Shown here piece by piece: positions 6,149 through 56,977 of a DNA stretch of 64,000 nucleotides. This DNA is from Allodiplogaster sudhausi (lineage: Eukaryota > Nematoda > Chromadorea > Rhabditida > Diplogasteridae), in NCBI GenBank assembly GCA_945643635.1, contig CALZFC010000095.1, forward strand, positions 1,263,501 to 1,327,500, read 5' to 3'. A program made the translations under genes and the position numbers. The notes under the pieces are model-generated. The model saw only the letters and a program-made list of their open reading frames with translations. It made no database searches and was not told the DNA's origin. The stretch's first letter is position 1, and each line of letters opens with the position of its first letter.

Positions 6149-6680
6149 ACTCATAGATCCACCACTTCTCGGGCACGTTGTGCTTAGGCACTCTGTGCAC
6201 GCCAAATCTCGAAACTGCACCGAACAGTTCCTGATCAAACAAAGCATTGTGAGTGATCAAACTCCCAAACAACAAACATTAGCATATCAAAATTTGTTCG
6301 TATTGTAAAGGAAGTGGAAGTTATAAACTGTTTGAACACTAAAGCATATTAGAATATATTAATCTCGTCATTTGAGATAATAGTCGAGTTAACTTGAGTT
6401 CGTTCTCTCTTCCTGTCTCTCATCTTCAATCCGTGGTCTTCAGTTCTCTCTCTTTTTCTCGTTTCCAATAAACCGTTCCCTATCTTACGCACACAACTCC
6501 CTATTCTTCATGAACAGAATAATGGAGCAATCCAATTCGAATTGGAAAATTGTACGTTGGCTCGAAACGTGGAGATAACCTCAGCTGTCCAAATATTGAG
6601 TCCTGGAAAGACCCAAATAATAGAAGAGTACACTACTTAAGCGGAGCTGGATTCGGTAAACACCAGTTCACCGCCACAGG
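6149..6680. other. Sequence present only upstream of the first cellulase copy
   Basis: This block separates the shared leader from the cellulase start and has no counterpart at the second copy. On the minus strand 6275-6150 is open and protein-like (for example RFGVHRVPKHNVPEKWWIYE), so it may be an exon fragment from an unrelated gene. I cannot assign a family. CT patches and an AATAAA at about 6468 follow. Confidence 0.35.
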
Positions 6681-7757
6681 ATGCTCCGACACACTCTCTT
6701 CTGTCTAGCAGTCATTTTGCTGGGAGCTTCCGCTCTCAGGCCGAAGAACCCGCCCTATGGACAGCTCTCCGTGAAAGGCACGAAGCTGGTGGGCGCCAAT
6801 GGACAACCCGTACAACTCGTCGGAATGTCGCTGTTCTGGTCTCAGTGGATGGGACAGTACTTCAACAGGGACACCGTCAACGCACTCGCCTGTCAGTGGG
6901 GCGCGAACGTGGTGCGTGTCGTGATGGGCGTCGACCAGGGCGGCTACCTCAGCAACAAGCAGAGCGAGCTTGCGAAGGTGCGCACCGTCGTGGACGCGGC
7001 CATCGAGCGCGGCATGTACGTCATCATCGACTGGCACGACCACGAGGCACACAACCACAAGTACCAGGCGATTGACTTCTTCAAGCAAATGGCCCAAACC
7101 TATGGCAAGTACCCGCACGTGCTCTACGAGCTCTTCAACGAGCCTCTCCAGGTATGTCTTTGATTCGGTCTCTTCGCGACTATAGCAAACTTTAGGTGGA
7201 CTGGAACAGCGTTCTGAAGCCCTACCACACCGACGTGCTGAAGGCGATTCGCTCCATCGACCCTGACAACGTGGCTCTGCTGGGTACCCCATCATATTCA
7301 GGAGCCACGGGCATCATCGACGCCAGCAACTCACCTCTGTGGGGTAAGCAGGACGCACGCTTCACTGATATCCTGTTTTAATTTAGGCCAGAAGAACATC
7401 ATGTACGTGCAGCACTTCTACTCGGGTTCGCACCGCGACAACGAGCGAAATGCTTACTCGAGGGCCGCGGCAAAGATCCCCGTGTTCATTTCGGAGTACG
7501 GAGTCTCCGAGGCTGACGGCGGCTCCAACGGACAGATCTACACGGACGAGGCGAACAAATGGTTCTCACTGCTGGACCGAAACAAGGCTTCCTATCTGGC
7601 GTGGTCGATCTGCGACAAAAACGAAGCCGCATCGGCGCTCAAGCCTGGCACCCAGCCCAACCAGGTGGGCAACGACTGGCAGTTGTCGAAGGCCGGTGTC
7701 TTCCTGAAGAATAAGATCAAGTCGAAGAAGCTGTTCTCGTGCAACTCCAGGGGCTAA
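6681..7757 (+). CDS. GH5 family cellulase (endo-beta-1,4-glucanase), copy 1
   Basis: A secreted enzyme expected to cut internal beta-1,4-glucan bonds. Three exons (6681-7151, 7196-7343, 7387-7757) join in phase into 329 residues, the usual size of a lone GH5 catalytic domain. Residues 1-19 form a signal peptide (MLRHTLFCLAVILLGASA). GH5 landmarks are present: the strand with VRVVMGV, YVIIDWHDHEAHNH, the acid/base Glu154 in LFNEP, the His/Tyr pair in YVQHFYSGSH, and the nucleophile Glu243 in FISEYG. There is no carbohydrate-binding module. Both introns are about 43 bases with nematode-type borders, so this is a resident nuclear gene and not bacterial contamination. Animal GH5 cellulases of this kind are held to come from horizontal transfer, and the exons are visibly GC-richer than the flanks. 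It differs from copy 2 at about ten mature residues. Confidence 0.93.
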
Positions 7758-11598: not shown

Positions 11599-12507
11599 TT
11601 CTACCCGGAGGATTTTACGACAACCACGACCACCACAACAACCACCACGACCACAACGCTTGCTCCAGTAAGTTGGTTGCATGATGTCAGATTCATACAT
11701 ATCTGCATGTAAATCGATAAATTTTCAGAACAAATGACAAGAATGTATAATACAACTTATTCAAATGGCCTACCAAAAGCTTTTGTCTGTAAACCTCTTC
11801 ACTTCCATTCTTCTCTCCAGGCATGGTCCCAGTGGTCTGCGTGGGCGGGCGACTGCTCCCCGCCGTGTGGCTGGTGCGGAAAGCAGTCGCGCACGCGAGT
11901 CTGCACTTCAAGCGGCGCGTGCAGGTTCATTGATACACCCACAGAAAGTGATCTACGAAAAAGTATCGCAAAAGCGAACTATACTTTCTTCTTGATATCC
12001 ATTCCATTTCAGAACATATTGCAATAATTTCGCTTATTGTCAAATATATAGTATAGTATGGTGTGATGGAAATAATACTAATACGGGTAGGAATCAGTGA
12101 GTCCAGGGGGTGAAAAGAAGAGGCAGTCACTGCTCCTCTTGCACGATTTGCATCCCAATTTTCACGAAGGGATGAGTGATACAGTCGTTAGAGAAATGCG
12201 AGACAAATTGAGATATGTTAGAGACGCATGCGGTTCAAATTTGAAATTTTGTTGCGGGCCCTAAATGGCGGTTCATCCAGTTGGGGCTTTGGCACAGTTT
12301 GAAGCGTAATTTTATCAAATACAGTTTTCTCTCGTCGGGTACTTACCTTCTTTCAATTCTGAAAATTAAAATAATAGAGTAAATATAAATTCTAGCGGTG
12401 ACGCCAGCCAAACGGAGCCGTGCGGCGCGCGTGATCTTTGCCCGGATCCGAAGCCGACGTGCTGCGATCATTACAGAAAAAAGCATCGTCGATCAGCAGA
12501 TGATTGA
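11599..12507 (+). CDS. TSP1-domain secreted protein, copy B (5' end missing)
   Basis: Three exons join in phase: a Thr-rich stalk (11599-11667, SFYPEDF then a run of about 14 Thr), the TSP1 core (11821-11924, WSQWSAWAGDCSPPCGWCG, QSRTRVC, SSGAC) and the end of the domain with a basic tail (12396-12507, TEPCGARDLC, TCCDHYRKKH). The W..W..C, CG, R.R.C and final cysteine pattern of a TSP1 repeat is complete. No signal peptide is found upstream; a stop lies just before the stalk and the LINE fragment adjoins it. So the copy is either 5'-truncated or uses an exon I cannot see. TSP1 domains bind matrix and receptor partners outside the cell. Confidence 0.6.
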
Positions 12508-16162: not shown

Positions 16163-16570
16163 TGGCGGAAAGTTACTGGAGATCGTGGTCAACTGTAGTC
16201 TTTGGCAGGGAGAAGAAGAAAGCCTTCTTGAGCCTGGCGGCGTTCCTGCAATGGCAGAAAGATTCCATGTATAAAGAGCAGCTTTTGTAAATGCTTACTC
16301 ACATCATAGGCAATCCTGGACCGTGATGATCGGAGTCGATGATTCGGTATTGCCTGACGGCAAAGTCTGACATTTCATGCATCACGACGTTTCGAATCCT
16401 TTCTAAATTACATTGAATGCAAGAAATGACAAGAATGACTATGGTACTTTAAGAAATACCATAAACGAGCAAAATTATATCTAACGAGGTTATTTGGAAG
16501 AAAAACCTGAGTTGGTGAGCAGCATCCTGGAGAACCTTTTATTGGTTCCGATTTCAACAAAAGTTGGTTT
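16163..16570 (-). CDS. Gene X, copy 2 (partial, inverted)
   Basis: This is the reverse-oriented copy of the 3' part of gene X. The frame reads LLTNS, then ERIR-VVMHEMSDFAVRQYR, IIDSDHHGPGLPMM and, after a short intron (about 16304-16247), NAARLKKAFFFSLPK ending TTVDHDLQ and TAA. The DFAV codons missing in copy 1 are present. The exon holding KEKDLGLF breaks off at about 16530, so the 5' part is absent. The C-terminus differs from copy 3 (SERA). Function unknown. Confidence 0.45.
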
Positions 16571-19387: not shown

Positions 19388-19796
19388 AACACTCTCTCGC
19401 TCTTCTGCCACCCTGCAGGAAGGATTCTCCTCCTAGCTACTTCAACGATTGACAACGAATCGGGCAAAGAGAAGAGAGAGAGCTACACCGCGCTATTTTG
19501 GGAGAAATTGAAAAGTGCATGCCTCACGAGATCTTCTGAGAGCTCTGTGGTTGGTCCGTGTTTTTGTAAACTCTTTGTGAATTTTCTTTTTTTTCGTTTC
19601 TTTATTTCTCACTTCCAATGCTGTCTGATTTCTCGAAAACACTATTAATGTTTTTGCACAACGTTGCCAAAAGGTCTATTCTTACAAAACGGATGATCAT
19701 GTACATGAAAACGGACCTCATGGTCAGCTCTGACTCTATAGATGCCACATCTGGAAGAATGAAGACTCAATGAAAACGACAGTTCAGCGCGGCAGC
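18964..19796. other. Intergenic with (CT)n tract
   Basis: No gene. A pure CT tract lies at 19348-19384. The duplicated leader of the cellulase unit begins at about 19727 and runs to the second cellulase start. Confidence 0.5.
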
Positions 19797-20875
19797 ATGC
19801 AACACGCACTCTTCTTCTGTCTAGCAGTCGTTTTGCTGGGTGCTTCTGCGCTCAGGCCGAAGAACCCGCCCTACGGACAGCTCTCCGTGAAAGGCACGAA
19901 GCTGGTGGGCGCCAATGGCCAACCCGTACAACTCGTCGGAATGTCGCTGTTCTGGTCTCAGTGGATGGGACAGTACTTCAACAGGGACACCGTCAACGCA
20001 CTCGCCTGTCAGTGGGGCGCGAACGTGGTGCGTGTCGTGATGGGCGTCGACCAGGGCGGCTACCTTAGCAACAAGCAGAGCGAGCTTGCGAAGGTGCGCA
20101 CCGTCGTGGACGCGGCCATCGAGCGCGGCATGTACGTCATCATCGACTGGCACGACCACGAGGCACACAACCACAAGTACCATGCGATTGACTTCTTCAA
20201 GCAAATGGCCCGAGCCTATGGCAAGTACCCGCACGTGCTCTACGAGCTCTTCAACGAGCCTCTCCAGGTATGTCGTTGATTCGGTCTCTTCGCGGCTACA
20301 GCAAACACTTTAGGTAAACTGGAACAACGTTCTGAAGCCCTACCACACCGATGTGTTGAAGGCGATTCGCTCCATCGACCCTGACAACGTGGCCCTGCTG
20401 GGTACTCCATCATATTCAGGAGCCACGGGCATCATCGACGCCAGCAACTCACCTCTGTGGGGTAAGCAAGACGCACGCTTCACTGATGTCCTGTTGTAAT
20501 TTAGGCCAGAAGAACATCATGTACGTGCAGCACTTCTACTCGGGTTCGCACCGCGACAACGAGCGAAATGCTTACTCGAGGGCCGCTGCAAAGATCCCCG
20601 TGTTCATTTCGGAGTACGGCGTCTCCGAGGCTGACGGGGGATCCAACGGACAGATCTACACGGACGAGACGAACAAATGGTTCGCATTGCTGGACCGAAA
20701 CAAGGCCTCCTATTTGGCGTGGTCGATCTGCGACAAAAACGAAGCCGCATCGGCGCTCAAGCCTGGCACCCAGCCCAACCATGTGGGCAACGACTGGCAG
20801 TTGTCGAAGGCCGGTGTCTTCCTGAAGAATAAGATCAAGTCGAAGAAGCTGTTCTCATGCTACGCCCGGGGCTAA
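19797..20875 (+). CDS. GH5 family cellulase (endo-beta-1,4-glucanase), copy 2
   Basis: Secreted endoglucanase with the same three-exon layout as copy 1 (19797-20267, 20314-20461, 20505-20875); each exon has exactly the same length, giving 329 residues. I start at 19797 because this matches the exon length of copy 1; an ATG at 19770 would add nine residues before the signal peptide. Catalytic Glu154 (LFNEP) and Glu243 (ISEYG) are conserved. About ten mature residues differ, for example KYHAI for KYQAI, MARAYG for MAQTYG, and VNWNNV for VDWNSV. Exon sequence is much better conserved than flanks and introns, which suggests that both copies remain under selection or were recently converted. Confidence 0.93.
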
Positions 20876-28006: not shown

Positions 28007-31000
28007 CTAGACTGCGCTCCCTGGCTTCGATGCCTTGGCCTTTTCCTTCGCGGCGTCTTCTTTCTTTTCCTGAAGCTGCGCTTCCCTGAAATCACTCAAA
28101 TTGTTAGCCTCAACCTAACCACTAACCTTAACCATAGCCTCAACCCTAAACAATATCCCTAGCCCAAGAATGAACGTATGTGATGGCCTCGTTGCACTGA
28201 TCGGCAAAGCGCTTGATGCCGTCCACCTTCTCACGTGGAAGGCCAGCCAGCTTGATGAGCGTGTTAGCAGCGATGTAGAGGGCGAAGGCGAGCTGCTGCA
28301 AAGTGAGACGAGGTTAAGGAAGGGCAGGGTATGTAGATTAGCGTGAATGTGAGTTGAGGTTAGGTTAAGGCGAAATGATAAGGCCATGGTAGACCAAGAT
28401 CAAAATAAGACGAGATCCCCTCACACTCGGATGCTGAATGGCGTTGTAGCGATGGAGGCGGATGGATTTGGCAATCTCCTTGACCTCCTCCGTCGTCAGC
28501 TTCTACGTGCCCTTGTTGTCGAAGGCACGTTTCAGCATGAGCCTTTAACTTGTGGACGGGTGGGCGGAGCCTAACCAGGCTGACGAGGAAGGCGCCCGTG
28601 CGTCCGACTCCTCCGCGACAGTGCACGAGAGTGCACTTGTTGTCATAAGTCGCGTGTTTGAAGACTTGCATGGTGAATTCCTGAACGGTGAGCGGGATTA
28701 TGATTATGAAATCAGGCGTAATCAGGTGTGGACGGGTGGGCGGAGCCAAAACTAACGATGATGTCACCGCGTTCGGTGGGGAGTTTATGGTCCTGCCAGT
28801 CGAAGTACTGGAAGTGCTCGATGGGATGCACTCCAGACTTGCCGGTCTCGTCCTCCTTCACCTCCACTTCCAGACGGCGGCGCATGGACGACGTCTGAAA
28901 AAAAAATGACGATTGCATTAAGAGTCAGGGTCCAAAGTAGTCTATCAATCCAATAGGAAAGTGCGGGGGTGGTCTTAAACCTTCGTCTCGACATCGACGA
29001 CGCGAATGGCGATGCTCGCATTGCCGATCTTCCCCTTGCAGAAGCTGATGTTGGCATGGGTGGATGGCAGGTACTCTGCATTCTGCAAGAATAGGCAAGA
29101 ACAGCGAATGCAATACTAAGTTTGACTTATTTCCCAGATAAGCCTCTCCGATCAATTTTGGCCAAAAAGGAAAGATTCCTTTTTCCTTTTGGCTAAGTGA
29201 AGGAATAAGTCAGTTATAAGATGTCGAAAATTACGACTGGTTGACTAACGATCTTGCCGCCGTCGTTCATCTTCTCATTACGACGCGTGAGCTGCACGAT
29301 GCAAGCGACGCCGGCACGCACTGCGCTCCGGAAGAAATGCAGCAGCTGGCTCCGGTTCGGGCACTAAAAATGGATTGTTAGTCATTTGTCGACATCATTA
29401 TAATTAGGATCATGATTCTTTTACAGCTTTTTTAATCGATTGTTTTGATGGATAGATTGAACAGATTGATTCGCCGCGTCACTCACCATGGCCGCGATCA
29501 GCGACTTCTCTTCTTCTTACCGTCCGGGAACTTGGGATCGAACATTGTGGCCTTGACGAGTGGAATGAGGACGCTGCAAAGCAAGATTTGTGTTAAAGTT
29601 TTCCATTAATTTTATTAATCACTTAATCATGTGGATTACGTCCTTGTCGTGGGTGTCGGTGGGAATTCGCTCGTTGGCGGGAACATTGCCTCCCTGAAAT
29701 TATTTTATTTTATTATTTCTTTAAATTTTTTTTATTTTATATTTTATTCGTTATTCTGTTATTCGGGAGAAACTCATTCATCTGAAGAGGGCTTGTCCGG
29801 ACAGCGAAAGCGCAAAGTATTACCGTCGGGTCCTTGCTCCAATTGTGCCAGAACTGCATGACCTCTACGACGTCAACGTTGGTGAAAGCTTCGATGGCTT
29901 CTGAATCATATCATTCATCACATCCTTCAAATGAGAGGTTACTGTGTCATATTTAAGTTATAGCATAAATACAATGCAGTATAAAGTAGATGTCTGCGAA
30001 CCACGTGCGGTCGTGCGGATATCGCGGTCCAGCTGCGTTTCCTCCTTCGTTACTTCGACGACTTCGACTTCGGGCTTTCGGCACTTCCAAAAGTAGATCC
30101 CTCCTACCACTGAAAGCCGAAAAATATTGATTGGTTATCAACCGATTTTTACTTATTATCAGACTAAGTCTAATGGAATGCAGATTTATCGATTCTTTCC
30201 TAAACATACAGAGAAAGTTGAGCAGGAGCGCGGAGAGGCCACCGCCGACGCCACTGCCGATGTAAATCCTCATGCTGTCGCCTCCTCCATTTTTCGCATC
30301 CTGAAATTTAGAATTTATTTTTATAGCAATTTTCGTACTTTCATAACTCTACTAACATCGATTCTCTTATCCACTTCTTCTTTGTGCTTCTTGTCTGCGT
30401 CTTCTTTTTCCATCTTAAGCAGCCCAGCACATTCTTCTTCCCACTTGATCTTGCGATTTTTCTCCTGTAAATTTGTGTTATATATCTGCATCCCATGAGC
30501 TAACGCAAACATACAAAATTTCATTCGAAGTACACGCGTTTTTTCTGAGGTTTTAAACACCTGTTTCAGATCATTGCAGGCTCGGCCGACTTCGCTTTTG
30601 CAGAAGCACTCGAAGAGCGGGAGAGAGATGTTGAACGGCTCGATCTGAAAAAGAACCAATTATATCAGAAAATAGAATAAACAACACCCCACTTTATCTG
30701 CTCTCTCATCTATGAATTTGATATTCCAATGAAGTACTCAGAAACCTTGCGACAGCGATCCTCGAGACCCTCTTCTGGCAGCTTGTCCACACAGCCAATC
30801 CCGCTCTCGTTAGTCGGAACAATGAGTAAGAGCTTGGAGCTGCAGAAGTAGTTAACAGGGCAGGTCTTCTTATCAGCGCCGTCGAGGCAGTAGTGCTAAG
30901 ACCAGGTTGAATGAGAAAGTGCACTATTGGAAAAGTGCACAGTCGCTTCAGGAAACAATAGCCCTTCAGATGACAGGAATTAGTGCTAACGTTCGGATCG

Positions 31001-38938: not shown

Positions 38939-39810
38939 TAAAAGTTCTCTTATTTTCTCCGTCTCTTAAATCATTCCTCTCATTCTCTCTCAATCACTTC
39001 AGCTTTAATCTTTTGTCCTCGCCAGAAAAGGATAGATTACAAGGTTTTCTCGCTCTCACCAAACTGGCCTCTCACACAAACTGGCCTCACCACAAAAAAG
39101 TCAACTAAAATATACTCGGCAGAAGTGTATTGTCTCCAAATGTCTCAGTGTCGATATGGCGAAAGAAGATGCGGATAGGGCGTGCAAGAGGCCAGAGTCA
39201 GCGGAGTGCACCACGAAAGACAACGTCACAGGAGGAAGAGTGGCCAGGAAAGCCTATCTGTTTTGTGTTTCTTACATCCAATGCAAGCGAAGTGCAACCA
39301 TACTCAAGAAGTACATGGAAATAGAGTAAACTGAGAGCATTAGCCCGCAAGACATTAATATATTAGGAAATCATCTAGTAAATCTCTGTGTGTAGCACTT
39401 TATTTTCATAGGTAAGAAATTATTTATTGCATTCGGATCGAACAACATTGTGCAGCGAGTCTTTCAATGAGTATTGCCATTCACAGAGAAATAGGGGAGA
39501 GTCTGGGAAGGGAGAACGAGAGAGGGCAGCAATCACTTGATATCTCACTCTATGAAATTTCTGAGGATACACACGTGTGCCATATTTTTGCACTTAAAAA
39601 TCACTAATTTTGCTTCGGCCTTTCTTTAATGGCCCCTCAAAACGATTAGGTTAAAGGGGGTTAATTCTACAGGAATAGCCGGGGCAGGTCCGGAGGGTTC
39701 AATGGCATAAAATTACGCATTTCTAACTTAACAAAATTAGCCTAAATTAACATTGAAGTTCAAAATCATACACGTATTTCATAGTTCGGTGATGGTAAGA
39801 GACAATGGGG
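38631..39810. other. Intergenic; 3' flank shared with other duplicons
   Basis: A GA tract (38880-38938). 39120-39480 is homologous to 42650-42950 and partly to 50800-50900 (shared TTATTTATTGCATTCGGATC or close variants), marking the downstream end of the endophilin-plus-small-gene unit. Confidence 0.6.
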
Positions 39811-40478: not shown

Positions 40479-41572
40479 TTAATTTGCATACACGTACGAG
40501 ACTTGGAAGAATGCAGCCCGGCCATTGCAGCGGCCCTCGTACCAGTTCTCGCTGATCTGCGAGACCAGTTCGATCAGTGCGCCCGCCTGGAAGATGAAGA
40601 AATCAGTCACTTTTGAATTTAGAGCAATTAAAAATTAATTAAATTAATACTTATTATAACTTCTAATAAAAAAAATTAATTTGTTGAACAATTCTTAAAC
40701 ACGAAATGCTCGCCTTAAAGTCAACTTCCGTGTCATTCTGCGCTTCGAAGTCTAAGAGAGTGGGGGTGGATTCTGGAAAGAGTTCTCTCCAGATCTCTCT
40801 AGATTCTCTCTTTCTCTTCTCTCCCTCTCTCCATCTTCTTCTTTCTCTACTTCCTTCCCCCACTTCTCTCCCCCCCCACTCCTCTCTCTCTCCCTCCCTC
40901 TCTCTCTCTCTTTCTCTCTCTCTCTCCATCTCTCTCCCTCTAACCTGCTGCCTTCTGCGGGAGTGCCTCCGCCTGCTGCTGATGCCACCCTCCTCCATTC
41001 ACTGCTGGTTCTGCATTCCCCGCGGCTGGGGACAAGGCTGGAGGAGGCGCGAACTTTCCTTTCAGCTGTTGGTGGAGAATCTTGAGTACTTGCGCAGTCA
41101 GTTGATGGAAGTCGAGCTGCGATTCGACCAGTGCAGACAGTTGCGACACTTGTACCACCTGGAACAATCTTTCTCTCTTTCTTTTCCTCCTTCTCTCTCT
41201 CTTTCTCTCTCTCTCTCGTTCTCTCTCTCTCGTTCTCTCTCTCTTTCTCTCTCGTTCTCTCTCTCTCTCTCTTTCTCTCTCTCCTCTCTCTCATGCTGAC
41301 ATCCTTCAGTTCGTTGTTCTGGAGATGAGAGAGTGGATCGATAAAGTTCCGCCTGATCGTATCCTCCATTTGATACTTGATGTCAGCGAGTTGACGGTAC
41401 GCTTCGCCAGAGTCCACGAGAGCCTTAAAAGAGCCAAAAAATTCACTCTTCAATCAATACGCATCTTTTTGCCTTACTCAAGGGCGAGAGAGCATGTGAT
41501 TTGGAGAGATGCCCACTACAATAGCCCTGTTTTTCGACTCCATTTTTCGCCCCTACCTCTCTCTCTCTCTCA

Positions 41573-41613
<41 letters not shown>

Positions 41614-42366
41614 TGCCCAGATCCGAGTCCTCTCCCAGCTTAATAGCGTATTTCGTCAGTGTCTCCGAGAGTAGTACCTCTGTCTGCACATACGGATAAG
41701 GCTGCGAACTTCATACATATAAGTTTATTTTATTATATTACCTAAATAAATATTACCCTAGATGAATAAATATATTATATTACCCAAGATGAATAAAAGA
41801 AGAGAAAAAGAAGCCGTAAAATCGTATATTATATATCACATGCACTAAACGATAACTAGCTTTAAATTAACATGTGTTTATTATTCAAGCACATTTCAGG
41901 TAGATAACCACTTGCGGCGCATCCTCCGAGGCTCGATTCGAAGCGCGTTGCTTGCGGTCGGCACGGTACAACTCGAGCAGGTACGCCATCGACGGGATGG
42001 CGTCATCATTTTCAGCCACCTCAAATAGAAGAGGTATTTGCAATCTTATTCATCTCACAATAATAACATTTACGCTCTTATTAACCTTATAATGCCAAAA
42101 AAAACCAGAGAAATAATCGCTGATATGCAAACTCTTCGCGAAAACCTATTCAGCCATTTCCTTGAATTTCCAAAAAGCGAAAGTTTCAAGTAATATAGAC
42201 TGATACAGACTTCGAGGTTCACTCGGAGAACAGAATATAATCACTTTCTTACCGTTTCATTGCTGTCGAAGAACACCGGAATCGCCTTGGGTTCACGAGT
42301 CCTGAGAGCCTTGTAGAGAATGGCGTCTTCGCTTAGCGCCTCATCGACTTCTGGAGCGGGTGCCAT
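40479..42366 (-). CDS. Endophilin-derived protein L (271 aa, new N-terminus, one SH3)
   Basis: Seven exons (42366-42253, 42019-41912, 41701-41612, 41423-41301, 41158-40945, 40772-40714, 40586-40479) join in perfect phase. Residues 1-74 are a module absent from canonical endophilin (MAPAPEVDEALSEDAILYKA, then AYLLELYRADRKQRAS). Residues 75-180 are pieces of the BAR domain ([50 protein letters not shown]). Then come a Pro-rich linker and an SH3 ([20 protein letters not shown]) with a shortened start (AKALF reduced) and an altered end (FFQVSYVYAN). Exon 5 fuses two exons that are separate in the canonical gene. The amphipathic helix, the [13 protein letters not shown] segment and the [11 protein letters not shown] exon are missing. 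The intron after exon 6 begins with GC. Membrane bending by a BAR dimer is unlikely; SH3 binding may persist. Confidence 0.75.
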
Positions 42367-43780: not shown

Positions 43781-44590
43781 TTAAGTAATACATAAAATAG
43801 CTGCGTAAGATTCTCGAGAACGGGCATTGAGAAGACGTGCCCCGGATGAGGCTGGCAGCTCACATGTCTCATTCTTACAGCGAATTTATCTGGCTGAGAA
43901 TGGGGGACATTTAATTTCAGTGAAAGCCACTAATGAAAACATCCACAAACTCCATAATTATTCTAATACCTGTCTCTCTTTCTCTCTATCTCCCATCTTT
44001 CCACTCCCACTCTCTTCATCATCTGTCTCTCTCTCATCTCTCTCTCTCTCTCTCTCTCTGTCTCATCTTTCTCTCTCTCTCTTCATCTCTTTCTCTCTCT
44101 CTCTCTTCATCTCTTTCTCTCTCTCTCTCTCTTCATCTCTTTCTCTCTCTCTCTCTTCATCTCTTTCTCTCTCTCTCTATCTCTCTCCAACCTTGTTCAG
44201 ATCCTCTCCCAGGTTCATCCCGTATTTCATCATAGTCGCCGAGAGGAGTCCCTCTTCCGTCTGTGTGCATCTCGACGTCTGATTGTGAGTTCTTCCGTGC
44301 ACCTTGGAAACGGCGCCAATATTTGCCACCTTTGCCTTTCTATTCGTGCCCTTGGGCAACAAACAAACAAGTCTATTATTTTATATTACTTAAACGCATT
44401 ATATTACCCTTGATGAATTTATTATGCTCCTCTAGATGTATTATATTACAGTGGATAAAAGAATAACACTATTTCGTCTTTCGATTAGCATCAAGTCACT
44501 TATATATATATAACAAGGCTTAAATATCTGCTTTCCTTGATTGCGAAGTAGGATATATATATATATATATCCTACTTCGCAATCAAGGAA

Positions 44591-44637
<47 letters not shown>

Positions 44638-45473
44638 TACTTCGCAATCAAGGAAAGCAAACTCCTCACTTTCATCGTCGTCTCCACACCCGACGAATCT
44701 GCGGAAGAAGAGTCCTTAGCCGGCACCGACTTCTTTGCCTGCCAAGGAGTAGAAAAGAAAAGTTACACTCCGAATGACAGTTTTTTATTTAAGAAAAAAT
44801 TAACACACTAAAATAAGATGGAATCAAATATAGTAGACATCAATTCCGTATGATACCCAAGCATGCGCTTTATTTGATGTTGATAAATAAATAAATAATA
44901 ACGAAATGTAAAGACAAAAGGTCGATACACCCTTATCATGACATGCCTTCCAAATAAAAGATGCTTCACATAAATACACGCCTTCAAGCACACTTCAAGT
45001 AGTAGGTTTTACCTGCGGTGCTCCGGCCGCGGCTCCATTCGAAGCGCGTCGCTTGCGGTCGGCGTGGTAAAACTCGAGCAGGTAGCCCATCGACGGGATG
45101 ACGTCATCATTTTCAGCCACCTCAAATGGAAGAGTTATTTACAATCTTATTCATCTCACAATACCAACATTTACGCACTTATTAACCTAATAAAATCAAA
45201 AAAGCCAGGAAAATTGTCGCAGATATGCAAACTCTTCGCAAAAACCTATTCAGCGGAATGTTCAATTCCTTGAATTCCAAGAAGTGAAAGTTGCAAGCAG
45301 TTCACACTGATACTGACTACGAGGTTCACTCGGAGAACTGAATAGAATCACTTTCTTACCGTCTTGGCGAGTCGCCAGTATTCGTTGGGGCCGAAGATCA
45401 TGGGCCCGCGCGTCTTCAGAGCCTTGTAGAGAATGGCGTCTTCGCTTAGCGCGTCTTCTGGAGCGGGAGCCAT
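43781..45473 (-). CDS. Endophilin-derived protein M (180 aa, no SH3)
   Basis: Five exons (45473-45360, 45120-45013, 44738-44670, 44350-44192, 43873-43781) join in phase. Residues 1-74 are the same new module as in L (MAPAPEDALSEDAILYKALK, FGPNEYWRLAKT, GYLLEFYHADRKRRASNGAA). Residues 75-97 form a Ser/Lys linker (AKKSVPAKDSSSADSS). Residues 98-150 match the endophilin exon with KVANIGAVSKVHGRT and EGLLSATMMKYGMNLGEDL. The last exon derives from the canonical linker exon (PVLENRTP) but is read in another frame and ends after 30 residues. The rest of the BAR domain and the SH3 domain are absent. It might be a truncated, decaying paralog, yet every frame is open. S2 follows 71 bases downstream. 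Confidence 0.6.
44505..44665. repeat. AT tracts bracketed by three copies of a 20-bp word
   Basis: CCTACTTCGCAATCAAGGAA occurs at about 44570 and 44635 in direct orientation and at about 44533 inverted. The copies border (AT)n tracts, so the first two arms can form a long hairpin. It lies in an intron of gene M, next to the exon at 44670. Confidence 0.85.
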
Positions 45474-46003: not shown

Positions 46004-47094
46004 ATGCACTACTCCATGTCGTACGGCGAGATGTACTACGCCAACTGCAAGCGACTTGCCGCTTCGAATGCTGTCGCAGCCGGCGCACCGCAGGTTCAAC
46101 TAATATTTATTGATGCCAGGTAGAATCTGTATTGAAATGTGTGTCGGAATTATAATCGTGTATTCATTTGAAGCATATATTTTAACTGAAAGACTTGTAT
46201 TTATCAGTAGGTAAAACCCCTATTTTATCTACATACTGTATTCGACTTTTCAAAGTATTTTTTTATTCACTGTATAATAGAACATGACATCAAATGCAGG
46301 CTAAGAAGTCCACGCCAGCAAAGGACTCGTCTTCCTCAGCTCCCTCGGATAAGCATTCGGCGAAGAAAGTGGTGGTTTGTTTTCCTTTATTGAGTTGGCC
46401 ATCCTTGTATTTGACGAAATAGTGCTAATCAAACGATGAAATAGCTTCTTTTTTGTTGTTATTCATATAAGGTAAATGGAAGAACAACAATTGCAACTAG
46501 CTGCTATGGGCTAGGCTTGTCACCTTGTTACCTTTGTATCTTTTGAAAATTGTCTCACAATCAAAAATGAACGTGATATTCATTTTGCTCGCTTTCGAAA
46601 AACTCCCGTGGAGTGATTTTCGAGCAAAACATTATTTTTATTTTATTTTATTTTTGAAAATGTCTGTGTCAGAAGAATAAATAACGAGTTGTAAATAAGT
46701 AATAATAAATAAATAAAAAATTAATAATAAGTAAAAAAAATGAAGTAACCCAATAGTACCGGGTAATATAATATGTTTTGTTTGAAGCCCGCGGCCGCTA
46801 AAGATGCAAATGCATCATATGGCGCCAAGATTCCGACGTTGGACGCCATCTTGGCGCAGGCGGCTGCCGAGGTGCGCGCAACAGCGCAGGCGTTGCCGTA
46901 CTCGACATCGGCAGAGCGAGTCCTCTCGGAGACCATGACGAAATATGGGAAGAATATCGAAGAGCGCTCGGATCTGGGCAAGGTTGGAGAAGGAGAGAGA
47001 GAGAGTGAGAAAAGAGAGAGTGCAAGAGAGAGAGAGAGAGAGAAAAGAGAGAGTGCAAGAGAGAGAGAGAGAGAGAGTGAGAAAAGAGAGAGTG

Positions 47095-47132
<38 letters not shown>

Positions 47133-49585
47133 TTCTGCTCGGGCCGCTCGAACCGTATCACATGGCTCGTGGGCGGTACCGTATGCTCCCTCTCCCCAGG
47201 GTCTCAGGAAAAAAGGGCGCCAATACAAAAGTGAGTTTTAAGTCGCCTTTAAGGCTCTCGTCGACACAGGCGAAGCGTACCGTCAACTGGCACACATCAA
47301 AGATCAACTGGAAGATATGCTCAAGAAGAACTTTATCGACCTATTCACCAATCTTCGGAAGAACGTGCTCAAGGATGTCAGTATGAGAGAGAGAGAACGA
47401 GGGAGATGGAGAGAAGTCAGAGAAAGGAGATGAGAGAGAGAGAAAGAGAACAAGAGAGCTGGAGAGAGAAAGAGAGAGAAAAAAGAGAACGAGAAAGATA
47501 TAGAGAAAGAGAAGTCAGAGAGAGAGAGAGAGAGAAGTTAAGATAATGATTACTGTAGGTTGAACAAGTGGCGCTGCTGTCTGCACTGGTCGAAGCGCAG
47601 TTGGCGTACCATCGTCTAAGTGCGCAAGTGTTCGAGAGACTCCATCAGCAGCTCAAAAGAAGGTTCGTAAATGTGGGAGAGAGAGAGAGTAAGAGAGATA
47701 GAGAGGGAAAGAGAGAGAAGGGGAGAGAGACGAGAGATAATGAGGCCGCACGCGACATTAGCAACCATAAAAATGTATTTCTAACAATAAGGAAAAAATA
47801 TCGATTAAATAAATAAATAAAAAATATGTAAATAAGATAATCTATTTTGTAAATAAGTAGATTATCTATTTCTTGCTCCTTTAAAAAATATTGATTGATT
47901 ATCGATTTCCTTTCCAGGTCACCGGCAGCACCCGACAGCACTTGCAGCGGTGTTCCCGGCACGAACGCGGCCTTCGAGCCACCGCCAGCCTACTCATCGG
48001 CCACGGGGGCAGCGCCAGCAGTCAATGGAGTAGGGTGGCATCCGCAGCAGGCAGGGGCACTCCCGCAGAAGGCAGCAGGTTGGAGAGAGAGAGAGAGAGA
48101 GAGTGAGAGAGAGAAGGGGAGAGGGATAGAGAGAGGGAAGGGGAGAGGGAGGGGGAGAGTAAGGGGCGGAAAGAGAGGGAGGGAGGGGGAGCGAAGGTGA
48201 AGAGAGATGGGTTGGGGGAGAGAGAGGGCGGGGGAGAGAGGGAGGGAGAGCGAGAAAGAGGGATGGAGAGAGAGAGAGAAGGGAGAGAGAGAGAAAGAGA
48301 GAGAATGAGAGAGAGAAAGAGGACTCTTTCCAGAATCCACCCCCGCTGCCAAGGCTCTCTTCGACTATGTAGCGCGGAATGACACGGAACTTGGCTTTAA
48401 GGCTGGCATTTCGTGGTTTTCTTTAGCAAAAGAAATTTTATTTTAATTTAGCGAACTTGAGACATGTTTAGAAGAAATTTTTTTAATTGACGCTAAATTT
48501 AAATGAGTATTTTTTTGATTGGCGCTAAATTCAAATATTTTATATTGGCGGTAAATTCGAATTTTAATTTTCCCCCTCTTCCAGGAGGGCGCCTTGATCG
48601 AGCTGGTCTCGCAGATCGACAAGAACTGGTACGGGGGCCGCTGCAACGGCCGGGCCGGCCTGTTCCCCGTCTCGTACGTCGAGGTGGTCGTGCCCCTGAA
48701 GAACGCCTCTAACAAGCCCGTTCTCGAGAATCACACGCCACAAGCGAGGTATTCTTTTATTTATTTATTTATTTATTATATTTTAATTAGTATTTCTTGT
48801 TGCACATCGGTTTCTTGCTTATTTATTTATTTATTTAATTGTATTTTCTTGACTAATAAAAAAATCTCGTGTTTTGTGCATCTTGCTTCATAATAATAGC
48901 GAAGCCAGGAATCGCCATTAGGGCTTAAAAGGTACACAGTCTACTTTACGGACCCATCCTGATTTTGGTCCTCCCCGGTGCTATGCCCACGGGTGCGCAG
49001 GTCACTGTCGAAGATCCAGAAGAGTAGAGTGGGGACGGAGGTATTGGGTCCGGAAACCAGGGTGGGTCAGCTGTTTCTGCCTAAATTTTCCTCAAAAAAA
49101 TGGTGGGTTGAGGCTTTGGAGAGGCCCAAAACCAGGATGGGTCTGTCAAATCGGCAGGACCTTTTTCTTTCCTTTAAAGCTTTTGTTCATATAGAAAATA
49201 TCGATAAATGTAAATCAAAAATAGATTAATACGAAAAATTTTAGTGAATATTTCATGAACAAATTTCAAATGGATTAAAATATCGATTGTATATATTTTA
49301 AATTAAATATCGACTTACCGTAATTGATTATCGATTTCTTCTTCCAGATTGCCAGCACTCGACGGTAGTGGCAGCAGTGGACCCGGCACTAACGCTGCAT
49401 TACAGCAGCAGGCGAGCGCTCTCCGACAGGAGGCAGCAGGTTGGCAAGAGAGGGAGAGAAAGAGAGGAGAGAGAGAGTGGGGGAAATAGATAGAGAGAGG
49501 AGTGAAAGAGAGAAGGGAATAGAGAGAGAGAGAGGAGTGAGAGAGAGAGAAGAGAATAGAGAGAGAGAGGAGTGAGAGAGAGAAG

Positions 49586-49676
<91 letters not shown>

Positions 49677-49700
49677 GAGTGAGTGGAAGAGGGAAACCGA

Positions 49701-49732
<32 letters not shown>

Positions 49733-50123
49733 ATGGAGTGAGTGGAAGAGGGAAACCGAAAAACAGAGAGAGAGAAAGAGAGAGAGAGAACTCTTTCCAG
49801 AATCTAGACCCACCGCCAAGGCTCTCTTCGACTATGAAGCGAGGAATGACAAGCAACTTTGCTTTAAGGTAGGAATGTCGTGCCTTTTGTTAAATTGGCG
49901 CTAAATTCAAATGCTTTTTTAATTGGCGCTAAATTCAAATGTTAATTTTCCCTTCTTCCAGGAGGGCGCCCTGATCGAGTTGGTCTCGCAGATCAGCGAG
50001 AACTGGTACGAGGGCCGCTGCAACGGCCGCGCCGGCCTGATCCCTGCTTCGTATGTCAAGGTTGTGGTACCCCTCACTCAGATGATAAGGGGTGCATGTA
50101 GGCACCCAATTTTAATTGAATAA
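46004..50123 (+). CDS. Endophilin-derived protein N with two tandem SH3 domains (433 aa)
   Basis: Eleven exons (46004-46093, 46300-46374, 46788-46982, 47254-47376, 47559-47662, 47918-48078, 48334-48401, 48585-48748, 49348-49439, 49801-49868, 49962-50123) join without a phase conflict. Residues 1-30 are the tail of the new N-terminal module (YANCKRLAASNAVAAGAPQ). 31-55 is a Ser/Lys linker. 56-195 holds diverged BAR pieces ([60 protein letters not shown]), lacking the amphipathic helix and the RRLDYD exon. 196-249 is a Pro-rich linker. SH3-1 (about 250-312) has ALFDYVARND and [19 protein letters not shown] second linker follows. SH3-2 (about 358-420) has ALFDYEARND and [18 protein letters not shown]. 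Exon 8 fuses the end of SH3-1 to a linker exon (PVLENHTP). One intron starts with GC. Confidence 0.75.
46985..47120. repeat. (GA)n tract in N intron, placed right after the donor
   Basis: GTTGGAGAAGGAGAGAGAG: the GA repeat starts within ten bases of the 5' splice site. Equivalent introns of L, M and the canonical gene carry the same arrangement on the sense strand. Similar tracts lie at 47380-47540, 47675-47740, 48080-48325 and 49450-49795. Confidence 0.85.
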
Positions 50124-50699: not shown

Positions 50700-51000
50700 T
50701 TTTCTTTCCTTTTTTGCCTCGAAATTCCCGTAACTCGAGGTCCCGGTTTGGATGCCCAGCCTTTGGAATAACTGTTTTAGGAAGTCATTTCGTAATGTCT
50801 TATGATAATTCCTTCGGTGTGTAATAAAGCTTTTCATTGGTAATAAATTATTTATTGCATTCGGATCGAACCACATCGTACAGCGAGTCAAAGTGAGTGT
50901 TGATTGATACTCACGGAGAAATCAGAGAAATAGGGAGTGTGAATGGGGAGGCAGCTTTTCGCTAAATACCGCACTCCTTATAACTTGACTCCTCAAGAGG
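50700..51000 (-). pseudogene. Remnant of the S-gene 3' flank (S3)
   Basis: 50790-50900 (TTATTTATTGCATTCGGATC) matches the 3' flanks of S1 and S2 in the same orientation. No S coding sequence survives between here and the canonical endophilin stop at 52101, so a third S copy seems to have been deleted. Confidence 0.5.
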
Positions 51001-51789: not shown

Positions 51790-52222
51790 GAGAGCGAGAG
51801 AGAGGCAGGAGAACCGTGTTGGGGAGAGTTCTTGTTAACAAAAAAAAATTCTTTGAAAAAGGTAAAATTTTTTCGTAAAATATCCACTTCTCTTTTAGAT
51901 CAGCCCCTTTTCCTAAAATTAAAATTGAATATAATGCTGCTCTCAACACGGCTCTCTTTTTGCAAAGGGGACTCTGAGTTTGAAACGGCTACGAAAGGGA
52001 CTGTAAGTTTGATGAATTGAAAGGGTTCTGAGTCTGAATCTTCAATTGGGTCTAGTAGTTCTCCGATGGTTACAAATGGGTGCTTGTATTCACCCCCTTA
52101 TCATCTGAGGGGTACCACGACCTGGACGTACGAGACGGGGAAGAGGCCGGCCTTGCCGTTGCAGCGGCCCTCGTACCAGTTCTCGTCGATCTGCGAGACC
52201 AGCTCGATCAGGGCGCCCTCCT
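51790..52222. repeat. Inverted repeat arm, 3' end of canonical endophilin
   Basis: Reverse complement partner of 49960-50345, covering the terminal SH3 exon and about 310 bases of 3' flank. Confidence 0.75.
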
Positions 52223-52783
52223 GGAACAAGAAACAATAATTAACATTTAAATTTACCGCCAATAAATATATATATTTGACTCTAGCGCCAAAATAGACTT
52301 TAAACATGCCTCAAGGTCGTCAAATAAAGAATTAAAAAATTATTTTCAATAAAAAAATTAAACATAAAATGCCCACCTTAAAGTCCAGCTCCGTGTCATT
52401 CTGAGCTTCAAAGTCGAAAAGAGCCTTGGCAGTGGGGGTGGATTCTGCAAAGAGTCCTCTTCCTCTCCCTCAGTCTCTCTCCTTTCCCCCCTCTCTTCGA
52501 TCTCTTTCTCTCCCTACTTCTCCCTCTCTGACCCTCCCTCTCTCTTCTCCCTCTCATTCTCTCCTTCTCCCACTCCCCCCCCCCCTCTTCTCCCTCTCTT
52601 CCTCCCTCTTTCTCTCTCTCTCTCCATCCCTCTTTCTCGCTCTCCCTCCCTCTCTCCCCCGCCCTCTCTCTCCCCCAACCCATCTCTCTTCACCTTCGCT
52701 CCCCCTCCCTCCCTCTCTTTCCGCCCCTTACTCTCCCCCTCCCTCTCCCCTTCCCTCTCTCTATCCCTCTCCCCTTCTCTCTC

Positions 52784-52831
<48 letters not shown>

Positions 52832-54899
52832 GCTGCCTTCTGCGGGAGTGCCCCTGCCTGCTGCGGATGCCACCCTCCTCCATTGACCGCTGGCGCTGCC
52901 CCCGTGGCCGATGAGTAGGCTGGCGGTGGCTCGAAGGCCGCGTTCGTGCCGGGAACACCGCTGCTGCTGCTGCCGTCGGGTGCTGGCGATCTGTGGAAGA
53001 ACGAGAAGAAATCAATCGATAACCAACAAGAAAGAAGAATTTCAGTAATTTATATGTAATTTAAAATATAAAATTCACGTTTTACGCTGTTTCCCCTTAA
53101 TTCATGACTATTGCTTTAGAAAAATAGGCGCCAGAAAAATATCGATAAAGCATTAATATACATTTTATTAACAAACATAAGCATAAATGCAAATACAAAT
53201 ACAAATATAAATAAATAAGAAAAAAAAAAATAAAATAATTAATAAAATAAAATAAAAATACCTCGATCTCGGCGTGCGATTCTCGAGAACGGGCTTAGAG
53301 ACGTGCTCCGGACGAGGCCGGCAGCTAGCATCCTTTATTCTGCAACAATAGAAAGAAGAAAGAGAGTGTCCAGGAAGGGAATGAGAGAGAGAGAGAGAGA
53401 TAGCGAGAGAGAGAGAGAGACAGAAAGAGAGACAGAGACAGAGAGAGAGAGACAGAGAGAGAGAGAGACAGAGAGAGAGACAGAGAGAGAGAGATAGCGA
53501 GAGGAAAAAAGATAAAACTGAAAAACTTCTACAAACATTTAAAACGGTACGAGTTACAAAGCACAGCAGGATACTGTAAATTACTTATTTCTATCATCTC
53601 TCGTTTCCCAATATTAATTTGTCTCGCTCTCTCTCTCTCTCTTTCTCTTCCTATTTTCTCTCTCTCTCTCTCTCTCTCTTATCTCCCGCTATCTCCCTTT
53701 CTCTCTCTCTCTCTCTTTCTACCTCTTCCTCGCTCTCTCTCTCTCTTTCTCTCTCGCTCTCCCATCTACGAACCTTCCTTTGAGCTGCTGGTGGAGTGTC
53801 TCGAGTACTTGCGCAGTCTGTCGATGGAAGTCGAGCTGCGATTCGACCAGTGCAGACAGCTGCGACACTTGCTCCACCTACAACAATACTTTCACTATCA
53901 CTGTCTCTTTCTCTATTCCTCTCTTTCTCCCTCTCTCTCTCCCTCTCTCTCTCTCCCTCTCTCTCTCTCTCTCTTCATCTCTCCTTCTCCCCCCTCCTGA
54001 CATCATTAGACAAGACGTTGAACATGGCCATCTCTGCGAGCTTCTTCGACTCTTCCAGCTTCTCTTCCGCTTGTATGAGTTCGTCATCTACAAATAAATT
54101 TTTTTTGTGACATTCTTTCCTTTTCATGCAATATCTCAGAGATAAGAATGATATATATATATAATAATAATAATATATATATATATATTATTATTATTAT
54201 TATTATACTTCATAATCATCTTAAATTAATTATTATTCAAAAGAGTAGTCTACAAAAATAAAATAACAGAAAAAAACTGCTACCCCTTGTCTGCTTTCGC
54301 TTCTTGCAGTCATAGTCAAGACGTCGTCCCTTCAGCTTGGTTCGGTGATGCTGAGCAAATTATTATTATTATTATTAATTATTTAATTTATCAACCGAAT
54401 CAATTTTGCTTATACAAAAAAAAATCATTTAAAGAACTGAAACTCGTTTCATTAAAAATAAATGTTTTTGCACATATTTTGAAAAAAAAAAGGAAATGCC
54501 AGCTGAATTTCCACTTATTTGTGTCCTTACATAGATAGAAAAAGTATGAGGTGAAAAAAAAACATAAATATAGTGCTGTCATTTCTGCGAAATACAAAAT
54601 CTGCCTGCCCGAACTTACGTTGACATCCTTGAGTTCGTTGTTCTGGAGATGAGTGAGTGGATCGATAAAGTTCCGCTTGATCGTATCTTCCATTTGATAC
54701 TTGATGTCTGCGAGTTGACGGTACGCTTCGCCAGAGTCCACGAGAGCCTTAGAGATATTTTTTTTATTAAATTTTAAAATTCAAGAGAATCAATTAGTTA
54801 ATAGCATTTATTCTCTCTTTCGTTCATTCTGCTCATCTCTCTCTCCCATCTTTATCTGATTCTCTTCATCTCTCTCCATCTCTCCCTCCCTCTCTCTCA

Positions 54900-54931
<32 letters not shown>

Positions 54932-56977
54932 GCTCTCTCTCCCTCTCTCTCTCTCTATCTATCTCTCCCTCTCCAACCTTGCCCAGATCCGAGTCCTCTC
55001 CGAGCTTCTTGCCGTATTTCGTCATGGTCTCCGAGAGGAGTCCCTCTGTCTGCGGGTACGGAGACGTCTGCGTCGTTCCTCGCACCTTGGAGATGGCTCC
55101 CATCGTCGCCATCTTGGCGCGGGTGGCTACAAATTTGAATTTGGCGCCAAAATAAAATTTGAATTTAGCGCCAATTAAAATATCTTCTTTTAAACATGTC
55201 CATAGATCGTTAAAATAAAAATAATTAATTAACCAGGCTTTTTTAATTATAATTAATTAATAATTAATTCAATTGAAAAACAACTAGTGCTTAAACATAA
55301 AATACGTATTTTGATCGTAAGTATATAATAAATAGAACAATTACACTATCGATTCCCGATAATATATAATTTCCCCTTCCTCCACCTCTACACTTATGAT
55401 TTATACTTCCATTTATAAATAACTAAATTTTCTATGTATAGTGCATCGCAATCTTTCGCACAATTGTAGAGAGATATGCAGTTTTTATTCTTGTAAATTG
55501 AGCGATTTCAGTCGTGTATTTTTGCCGTTAATAATAAAAGTTCTTATAACCTAAGATAAATAAAAGTTAATAAACACCTTGTTTCTGACGTTTCGCGCGT
55601 CTTTTACAGCGTTTTTGCTTTGTTTTGCTTGGTTTGCACTGGAATTCGAGTACGCTCATTACTAAGCGAACTTCTGTAATATAAAGGGAGCACGAAACTA
55701 ATTATGCACTTATTTAAACGTTCCTTAATTTGCAAATATCGCATCTCTCTCTACAAAGAGAATGCTTTCTCGCCCCAAAACAGCTCTAATTCAAGCTGGG
55801 TTTACACTCTTTTTAACAAGTGACTATATTGAAGATAGCTTTCTTGCCTAGAGAAGCTCCACTGTTGTGTGAAGTAATGCATTATATTCTGGCGGCGCCC
55901 TAGAGACAGAGTGAGGGTGAGACAGAGACAGCAAAAGAAAAAAAAGACTTTGTAAGCTCAGCACCAAGGTATTGTGGGGTCGTCCAAGCCGATTTTTGCC
56001 AACGCTTGATGAGCATACATCTACCTTTCAAATACGCCTAGCAAATATGGCAGTGATGAAAAGAGCGAAAAAAGAGAGACTTGAGAACCATTAAAATGAT
56101 GAAAGAGATTTACTGTAATTATTTAAGCGAAAATACAAATAAATGAATCATTATATTATTTTAATTTTTTAATTTTTAAACTTTTTTTTCCATTTTACGG
56201 CCCGGATTCTAACCCGGATTCGGCTGTAGGTATTCATTGACGCCAGCAACGAGATTCGTGATCATCTCGCATGTCGTGTCCACTTTCTGCAATCATTTTT
56301 TTTCGTGGTTGATAATAATTAATTTTCATTTTTCTTCAATAATTAAATTAAAACACTAGGTATTTATTATAAGTAAGATTAATTTATATTTTAAATTATA
56401 AACTTTAAGAAGTCATTTTTTAAATGATACATTTGAGACAATTATTCGAGTGAATAAAATGGAAATAGGGATAAAAATTCAATTTCAAATATATAGGCAG
56501 ATAAAAAAAAATAAAATTAAAAAAATTATCGCTGACCCTCTCCATTTCGTTGTACTCGTCATCCAGCTTGGTGGCCTCGGCCGCACCCATCGTCTCGCTC
56601 AGGTACTGAAATGGGTACTGTATCAAGTGAATTACGTAAATAGATTTTGGAGGGGGGGGGGGGAAATTACTCATCTTTTCAAGAATAACATTATAAATAT
56701 TAGAATAGTAAAATGCCGGAAAAATAGTTTCTTTCCAAAATTATCCAAGAAAAAAGCCCCAGGAGGAATGAGCGCGGCGACGTATAAAGAACAACAACTA
56801 TATGAAGTTCTTGTCGCACTATGCGCCAAATTTGTGTGAAATAAATATATAACAAAATAAATCATGTAAAAGAGTAGAAAAAATAAAACAAAAAGAAAAA
56901 AGTGAAGTAAACAAATATAGTATAAATCTGACCTGGTTAGCCTTGTTGAACTGCTTGCGCAGCCCGGAGAGCGACAT
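52101..56977 (-). CDS. unc-57: Endophilin A (N-BAR plus SH3), canonical, UNC-57-like
   Basis: Twelve exons (56977-56933, 56605-56537, 56286-56214, 55126-54978, 54747-54619, 54350-54284, 54087-54002, 53877-53774, 53339-53262, 52990-52830, 52444-52377, 52220-52101) join in perfect phase to 382 residues, close to other worm and animal endophilins. The N-terminal amphipathic helix is [20 protein letters not shown]. The BAR domain follows to about residue 240 ([75 protein letters not shown]). The linker at about 241-320 is Pro/Gly/Ala-rich. The SH3 (321-382) has [30 protein letters not shown]. Endophilin bends membrane at synaptic endocytic sites and recruits synaptojanin and dynamin through SH3. 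Introns carry GA repeats on the sense strand. This copy is taken as the parent of L, M and N. Confidence 0.92.
53370..53765. repeat. GA block switching to CT blocks in endophilin introns
   Basis: GA-rich with CAGAGA variants at 53380-53510, then CT-rich at 53625-53762. Further CT tracts lie at 52455-52828, 53925-53985 and 54835-54970. Confidence 0.9.
54150..54210. repeat. AT / AAT mixed microsatellite
   Basis: TATATATATA flanking AATAATAATAATA and TTATTATTATTA runs in an endophilin intron, partly self-complementary. Confidence 0.85.

Follow-up and report, generated by a model that had tools for sequence, protein, structure and literature searches.

Endophilin A (UNC-57 / SH3GL1-3) is a conserved synaptic protein with one C-terminal SH3 domain. 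Adaptors of the Grb2 and SORBS families, of which SH2 and SoHo domains are features, carry two SH3 domains in one chain. Chimeric genes formed from partial duplicates are known in Pristionchus, where, according to extracts of one report (PMC6643871), exons of two source genes were copied and joined in close proximity. The present analysis concerns a predicted gene, P (46004-50123, plus strand), in a 64,000-nucleotide stretch of Allodiplogaster sudhausi DNA (contig CALZFC010000095.1, referred to below as the window).

P resembles endophilin A in its linker and SH3 sequences, a similarity that bears out the descent from endophilin proposed in the initial annotation of this DNA. Unlike endophilin A, P is without canonical exons 1-3, 6 and 7, so that the N-terminal helix is missing and the BAR domain is disrupted, and its frame combines a foreign N-terminus with two SH3 domains. 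The presence of two SH3s in one chain, predicted for P from its frame, recalls Grb2 and SORBS, and when the double-SH3 part was compared with PDB sequences, SORBS1 and Grb2 chains ranked highest, ahead of single endophilin SH3s. In contrast to these adaptors, P has neither an SH2 nor a SoHo domain, and its SH3s come from a local exon duplication of endophilin. Relative to the Pristionchus chimeras, as far as the extracts of PMC6643871 describe them, P has a conserved synaptic gene as a source, exists among several chimera copies, and is the one copy in which the SH3 set is doubled. What would be new is thus the unusual domain layout, chimeric partial duplicates themselves being already known.

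Searches returned 110 proteins, 103 of which had a BAR match; 100 of the 103 contained one SH3 and the other three contained none. Two SH3s were found in none of the 103 BAR proteins returned by the two protein searches, one of which scored only the 7989 candidates that shared most words, such that an unscored relative is possible. Within that scope, the earlier assertion that no described endophilin has this layout holds. Similarly, no double-SH3 endophilin was named in the titles and abstract openings of the endophilin literature that was searched.

The eleven exons of P join in phase to a stop codon and encode 433 residues, confirming the frame initially proposed:

46004..46093, plus strand: exon 1, copied from exon 2 of orphan gene X, with the putative start codon
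46300..46374, plus strand: exon 2, copied from X exon 3 (AKKS...)
46788..46982, plus strand: exon 3, corresponding to canonical endophilin exon 4, its 5' part being new
47254..47376, plus strand: exon 4, canonical exon 5, with donor GAT|gtcagt
47559..47662, plus strand: exon 5, corresponding to canonical exon 8; no canonical exon 6 or 7 is present
47918..48078, plus strand: exon 6, first linker, homogenised with parent gene M from about 47944
48334..48401, plus strand: exon 7, start of the first SH3, with a GC donor
48585..48748, plus strand: exon 8, end of the first SH3, with part of canonical exon 9 in place of the stop codon
49348..49439, plus strand: exon 9, second linker
49801..49868, plus strand: exon 10, start of the second SH3, with a GT donor
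49962..50123, plus strand: exon 11, end of the second SH3, with a 4-base insertion after VVVPL that gives a new tail

A Pfam search identified two SH3 stretches (1.8e-25), in agreement with the tandem arrangement and intervening linker that had been described, and a partial BAR domain (5e-15) in two stretches, the better of which spans residues 88-163. The description of the upstream exons as BAR remnants stands for this partial domain and fails for exons 1 and 2. These two exons encode 55 residues copied from the end of the neighbouring orphan gene X, which rules them out as BAR sequence. Exon 1 aligns to the first X copy (45119-45013) with 79% identity and eight gaps, and a tblastn search matched residues 9-35 and 30-54 of P to 45075-44998 and 44741-44667, respectively, of the minus-strand gene X. 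Outside of the parent gene, canonical exons 1-3 had only chance-level matches in the window (E 0.56 or worse), consistent with the proposed loss of the membrane-inserting N-terminal helix; the full set of absent exons (1-3, 6 and 7) had only weak matches there (E 0.06 or worse). At the other end of P, the insertion in exon 11 replaces the parental ending with a 15-residue tail. For exon 4 to stay in frame, the donor has to be an unusual one, for example GAT|gtcagt (after 47376). A donor four bases downstream of the exon end, TCA|gtatga, would break the frame, and other in-phase GTs occur nearby at 47365 and 47416.

The source of the endophilin exons lies tail to tail with P, approximately 2 kb away:

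52101..56977, minus strand: parent gene M, a complete endophilin A of 12 exons and 382 residues with one SH3 and a BAR domain (3e-72)

The M protein shares 80% identity with two Pristionchus proteins, one from P. fissidentatus and one, named unc-57, from P. pacificus, and M is identified as the unc-57 orthologue from this comparison. Of note, an SH3 exon of M (52444-52377, minus strand) encodes T where all 100 compared endophilin SH3s have G.

The linker, SH3-start and SH3-end exons each occur twice and in order in P. In the first SH3-end exon, the stop codon has been lost and the frame runs on after VVVPL into a piece matching the end of canonical exon 9 (48711-48749; 14 protein letters, E 0.002), the homologous donor of which is used. 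Judged from its sequence, the exon 8 joint is the in-frame joint of a local duplication. The internal repetition put forward at the outset is therefore upheld in that the exons recur in order and in frame. It does not extend to a clean copy, since the first linker and the intron that follows have been homogenised with M:

47944..48288, plus strand: tract near-identical to M, covering linker exon and intron, with 2 substitutions in 345 bp

Gaps in this tract occur at 48082 (18 bases, in a GA repeat) and at 48279. The surrounding exons are only 82-90% identical to M, and a simple tandem copy is ruled out by a first linker and intron that match M at 99% (gaps uncounted) when the rest does not. 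The tract is best accounted for by gene conversion after the duplication, which may have run in either direction. Sites within the SH3s of P and of a sister chimera, C, also conflict. The two SH3s of P share Y and R in their first half, S replaces D in the second half of both the second SH3 of P and that of C, and the first SH3 of P shares a GC donor with C. As a result, later exchange of sequence among copies is likely.

P is one member of a cluster. Self-BLAST and tblastn searches identified X together with endophilin sequence three times in the window, twice accompanied by a further orphan gene, Y:

40479..42366, minus strand: sister chimera C, X2 exons joined to endophilin exons; one SH3, 271 residues, GC donor
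43796..45473, minus strand: X1 with endophilin remnant B, containing pieces of canonical exons 4 and 9
45473-44637 (X1) and 42366-41912 (X2), minus strand: copies of orphan gene X
43709-43302 (Y1) and 40215-39811 (Y2), minus strand: copies of orphan gene Y, located behind B and C
50831..50922, plus strand: piece behind P of 92 bases, 81% identical to 39403-39492 downstream of Y2

Behind each X copy and in the same direction is endophilin sequence, either the remnant B (canonical exon 4 piece at 44335-44192, plus the exon 9 piece), C or P, and the orientation of P is inverted relative to the other two. Behind P, only the piece at 50831..50922 is present in place of Y; its match suggests that P, too, belongs to a copy of this X-endophilin-Y unit. 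The frame of C is open over the X2 exons, endophilin exons 4, 5 and 8, the linker and one SH3, with the endophilin part at 41701-40479. C has lost the intron that separates exon 8 from the linker, and the two exons are fused in frame (40945-41158, minus strand). Exons of two source genes are thus predicted to lie in one collinear frame, with fitting phases, in both P and C. Both genes contain X exons and lack canonical exons 6 and 7, and both have the GAT|gtcag donor after exon 5 and the GC donor within the SH3. They therefore probably descend from an ancestor that already had these losses and donors. For X, no Pfam family and no PDB match was identified; Y had a single Pfam match far below the cut-off; and X joined to Y as one query returned no homologue. 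A splice-acceptor-like site lies one base before the start codon of Y1, an arrangement seen in trans-spliced genes.

The binding faces of the SH3s were compared at 25 positions at which at least 95% of 100 endophilin SH3s agree, several of these SH3s being isoforms of one gene. M keeps 24 of these positions, the first SH3 of P 21, the second 20, and C 16. The first SH3 of P carries the changes E/D→K, E→G, F→Y and G→T, and its two lost acidic residues are E or D in 100/100 of the family SH3s compared. The second carries E→Q, D→S, F→I, F→Y and G→K, with the lost E, D and F at positions invariant in the 100 SH3s. Both keep the W, P and Y residues that form the core of the SH3 binding face. From SH3 biology, P might act as a bivalent protein that bridges or titrates endophilin partners such as synaptojanin and dynamin, a proposal tempered by the residues that both SH3s have lost. 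The site of the G-for-E change in the first SH3 (E of NWYEG) is, by numbering, presumably E329 of mammalian endophilin A1. Extracts of two reports state that E329K+S336K abolishes intersectin-1 binding of endophilin A1 (PMC7062783, PMC6861006). Since the mutant is tied to intersectin-1, E329 was dropped as a candidate contact for the proline-rich tail.

The open frame is compatible with the inclusion of both SH3s in one mature protein, which would require putative splicing through the GC donor of exon 7, AAG|gctggc. At this exon position the donor is GC in the first set of P and in C, and GT in the second set of P and in M. From extracts of PMC2490688, GC donors make up <1% of sites and usually occur in a near-consensus context, and a GC donor of C. 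elegans let-2 is used for regulated splicing. By this description, the context of AAG|gctggc is poor and without the strong match that usually compensates for the C. Two other routes were noted. Since phase 2, in which exon 5 ends, is also the phase in which both linkers start, the first set (161+68+164=393 nt) could be skipped in frame. In addition, an E-to-V change has created a GT at 48369 (TAT|GTAGCG) that is in frame and would remove 11 RT-loop residues.

Preservation of the frame was assessed from gaps between P and M. Ten exon comparisons, in which the first 36 bases of P exon 3 fall outside of the alignment, contained 9 gaps in 1027 aligned bases. Those with lengths not divisible by 3 were two in canonical exon 4, of one and two bases, which add up to 3, and one at a hand-set edge. 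In contrast, three introns and the 3' region contained 35 gaps in 447 bases, of which 27 were not divisible by 3, the 3' region comparison including the 4-base insertion that alters the last residues of P. Even with half of the intron gaps assigned to the M branch, neutral exons should contain approximately 30 gaps that break the frame. Gaps may accumulate more quickly in introns of low complexity or with repeats than in exons, but this could hardly account for a difference of the observed size. In the X-derived portion, X exon 3 had no gaps in 72 aligned bases versus 19 in 193 bases of the adjacent intron. X exon 2 had two single-base gaps and one at the edge upstream of the putative start, and downstream of it gaps of 4 and 1 with a net length of three.

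By three-taxon parsimony, leaving out 15 codons that differ in all three genes, silent/replacement changes numbered 14/36 for P, 22/20 for C and 5/1 for M. Branch dN/dS ratios were calculated with an in-house script on a star tree of P, C and M. The comparison with the canonical gene, which the initial annotation had called for, gave a divided answer: the P branch as a whole was 0.52, better than 1 (2ΔlnL 5.41), and linker 1 with the first SH3 was 1.03. The first SH3 alone was 0.73, and neither of these two values was better than 1. The C branch was 0.285 (2ΔlnL 17.5) and the M branch 0.135. When the linker and SH3 were removed from P, the test against 1 reached only 2ΔlnL 3.71. The first and second sets differ from each other with a dN/dS of 0.24 (bootstrap 0.13-0.40), a value that is low in part because linker 1 is M-like. 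The pairwise dN/dS of P and M, 0.50, was rejected as proof of function, since the same value would come from a neutral copy next to a parent under constraint. Absence of stops was likewise rejected as strong evidence; in a simulation, a neutral copy remained stop-free after 70 substitutions with a chance of 0.09. Constraint on P at the amino acid level is weak.

P looks like a young, fast-changing chimeric gene, and on balance is probably, with little to spare in confidence, a working gene in some form. The sequence shows a partial endophilin A copy, without the exons for the helix and for two middle BAR pieces, behind orphan X exons, and in P the linker-SH3 exons are doubled in frame, a piece of canonical exon 9 replacing the first stop. 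The gene would be expressed, and its product would be a soluble adaptor that keeps SH3 binding and not membrane bending. Its main form would probably contain the second SH3, with the first either included through the weak GC donor or skipped in frame, and it would compete with, or link, the proline-rich partners of canonical endophilin. The most specific version is a functional bivalent SH3 adaptor, derived from endophilin by stripping of the membrane-bending part, addition of a lineage-specific orphan N-terminus and doubling of the SH3, which links or titrates the partners of the adjacent synaptic endophilin, its two SH3s diverging in ligand choice and the GC donor serving as a one/two-SH3 switch. 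It is offered tentatively and, taken with all of its parts, is unlikely. A working gene may also be used only as a single-SH3 protein, a possible version that overlaps with the adaptor reading. Here exon 5 would be joined to the second linker as the first set decays, or the RT loop would be lost through the donor at 48369. The phases fit, this alternative donor is in frame, and the first SH3 is without measurable amino-acid constraint; yet the exons of the first SH3 are gap-free relative to M or to the second SH3, and the exon 8 joint is in frame with an intact GT donor.

A rival possibility, less likely than a working gene, is that P is a recently dead or dying duplicate, its frames held until recently by selection and gene conversion. 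The GC donor at exon 7 and the loose first SH3, which together with linker 1 evolves at a dN/dS of about 1, would then mark decay, and both the pairwise ratio with M and the indecisive stop simulation would be accommodated. Upstream of the start, the exon derived from X exon 2 reads GTG GCT TAA and gaps break the X frame, and after the exon 11 insertion the last residues are read in another frame. However, exons 3-11 have no stop and no net frameshift before those residues when the compared introns are full of frame-breaking gaps. Moreover, the GC donor is common to C and probably predates the split, yet the downstream frame was kept in both. An assembly artefact, in which collapsed or misjoined copies would have produced the tandem, is very improbable even in a region this rich in repeats and duplications, for the copies differ by roughly 10-25% outside of the converted tract and have their own introns, and exon 8 is joined by a clean in-frame fusion. 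If P is a working gene, the SH3 of a conserved synaptic protein, freed from the BAR domain and doubled, would provide a natural experiment on the SH3 alone. The cluster also displays stages of chimeric gene birth side by side, with the parent, a single-SH3 chimera, a double-SH3 chimera and a remnant.

Elsewhere in the window, positions 1-36000 contain many segmental duplications, both direct and inverted, that are up to 99.7% identical (16200-16536 versus 18948-18612). Two cellulase-like genes in the same direction (6660-7754 and 19734-20872, plus strand) are 93% identical over about 1.28 kb, and two pieces of the first match Pfam GH5 (9e-32 and 2.1e-12). A tyrosine-phosphatase-like piece (28363-28857, minus strand) contains VHCRGGVGRTG, with Pfam matches just below the cut-off, and a thrombospondin type 1-like piece (11713-12024, plus strand) scored 28.7 bits against a cut-off of 27.
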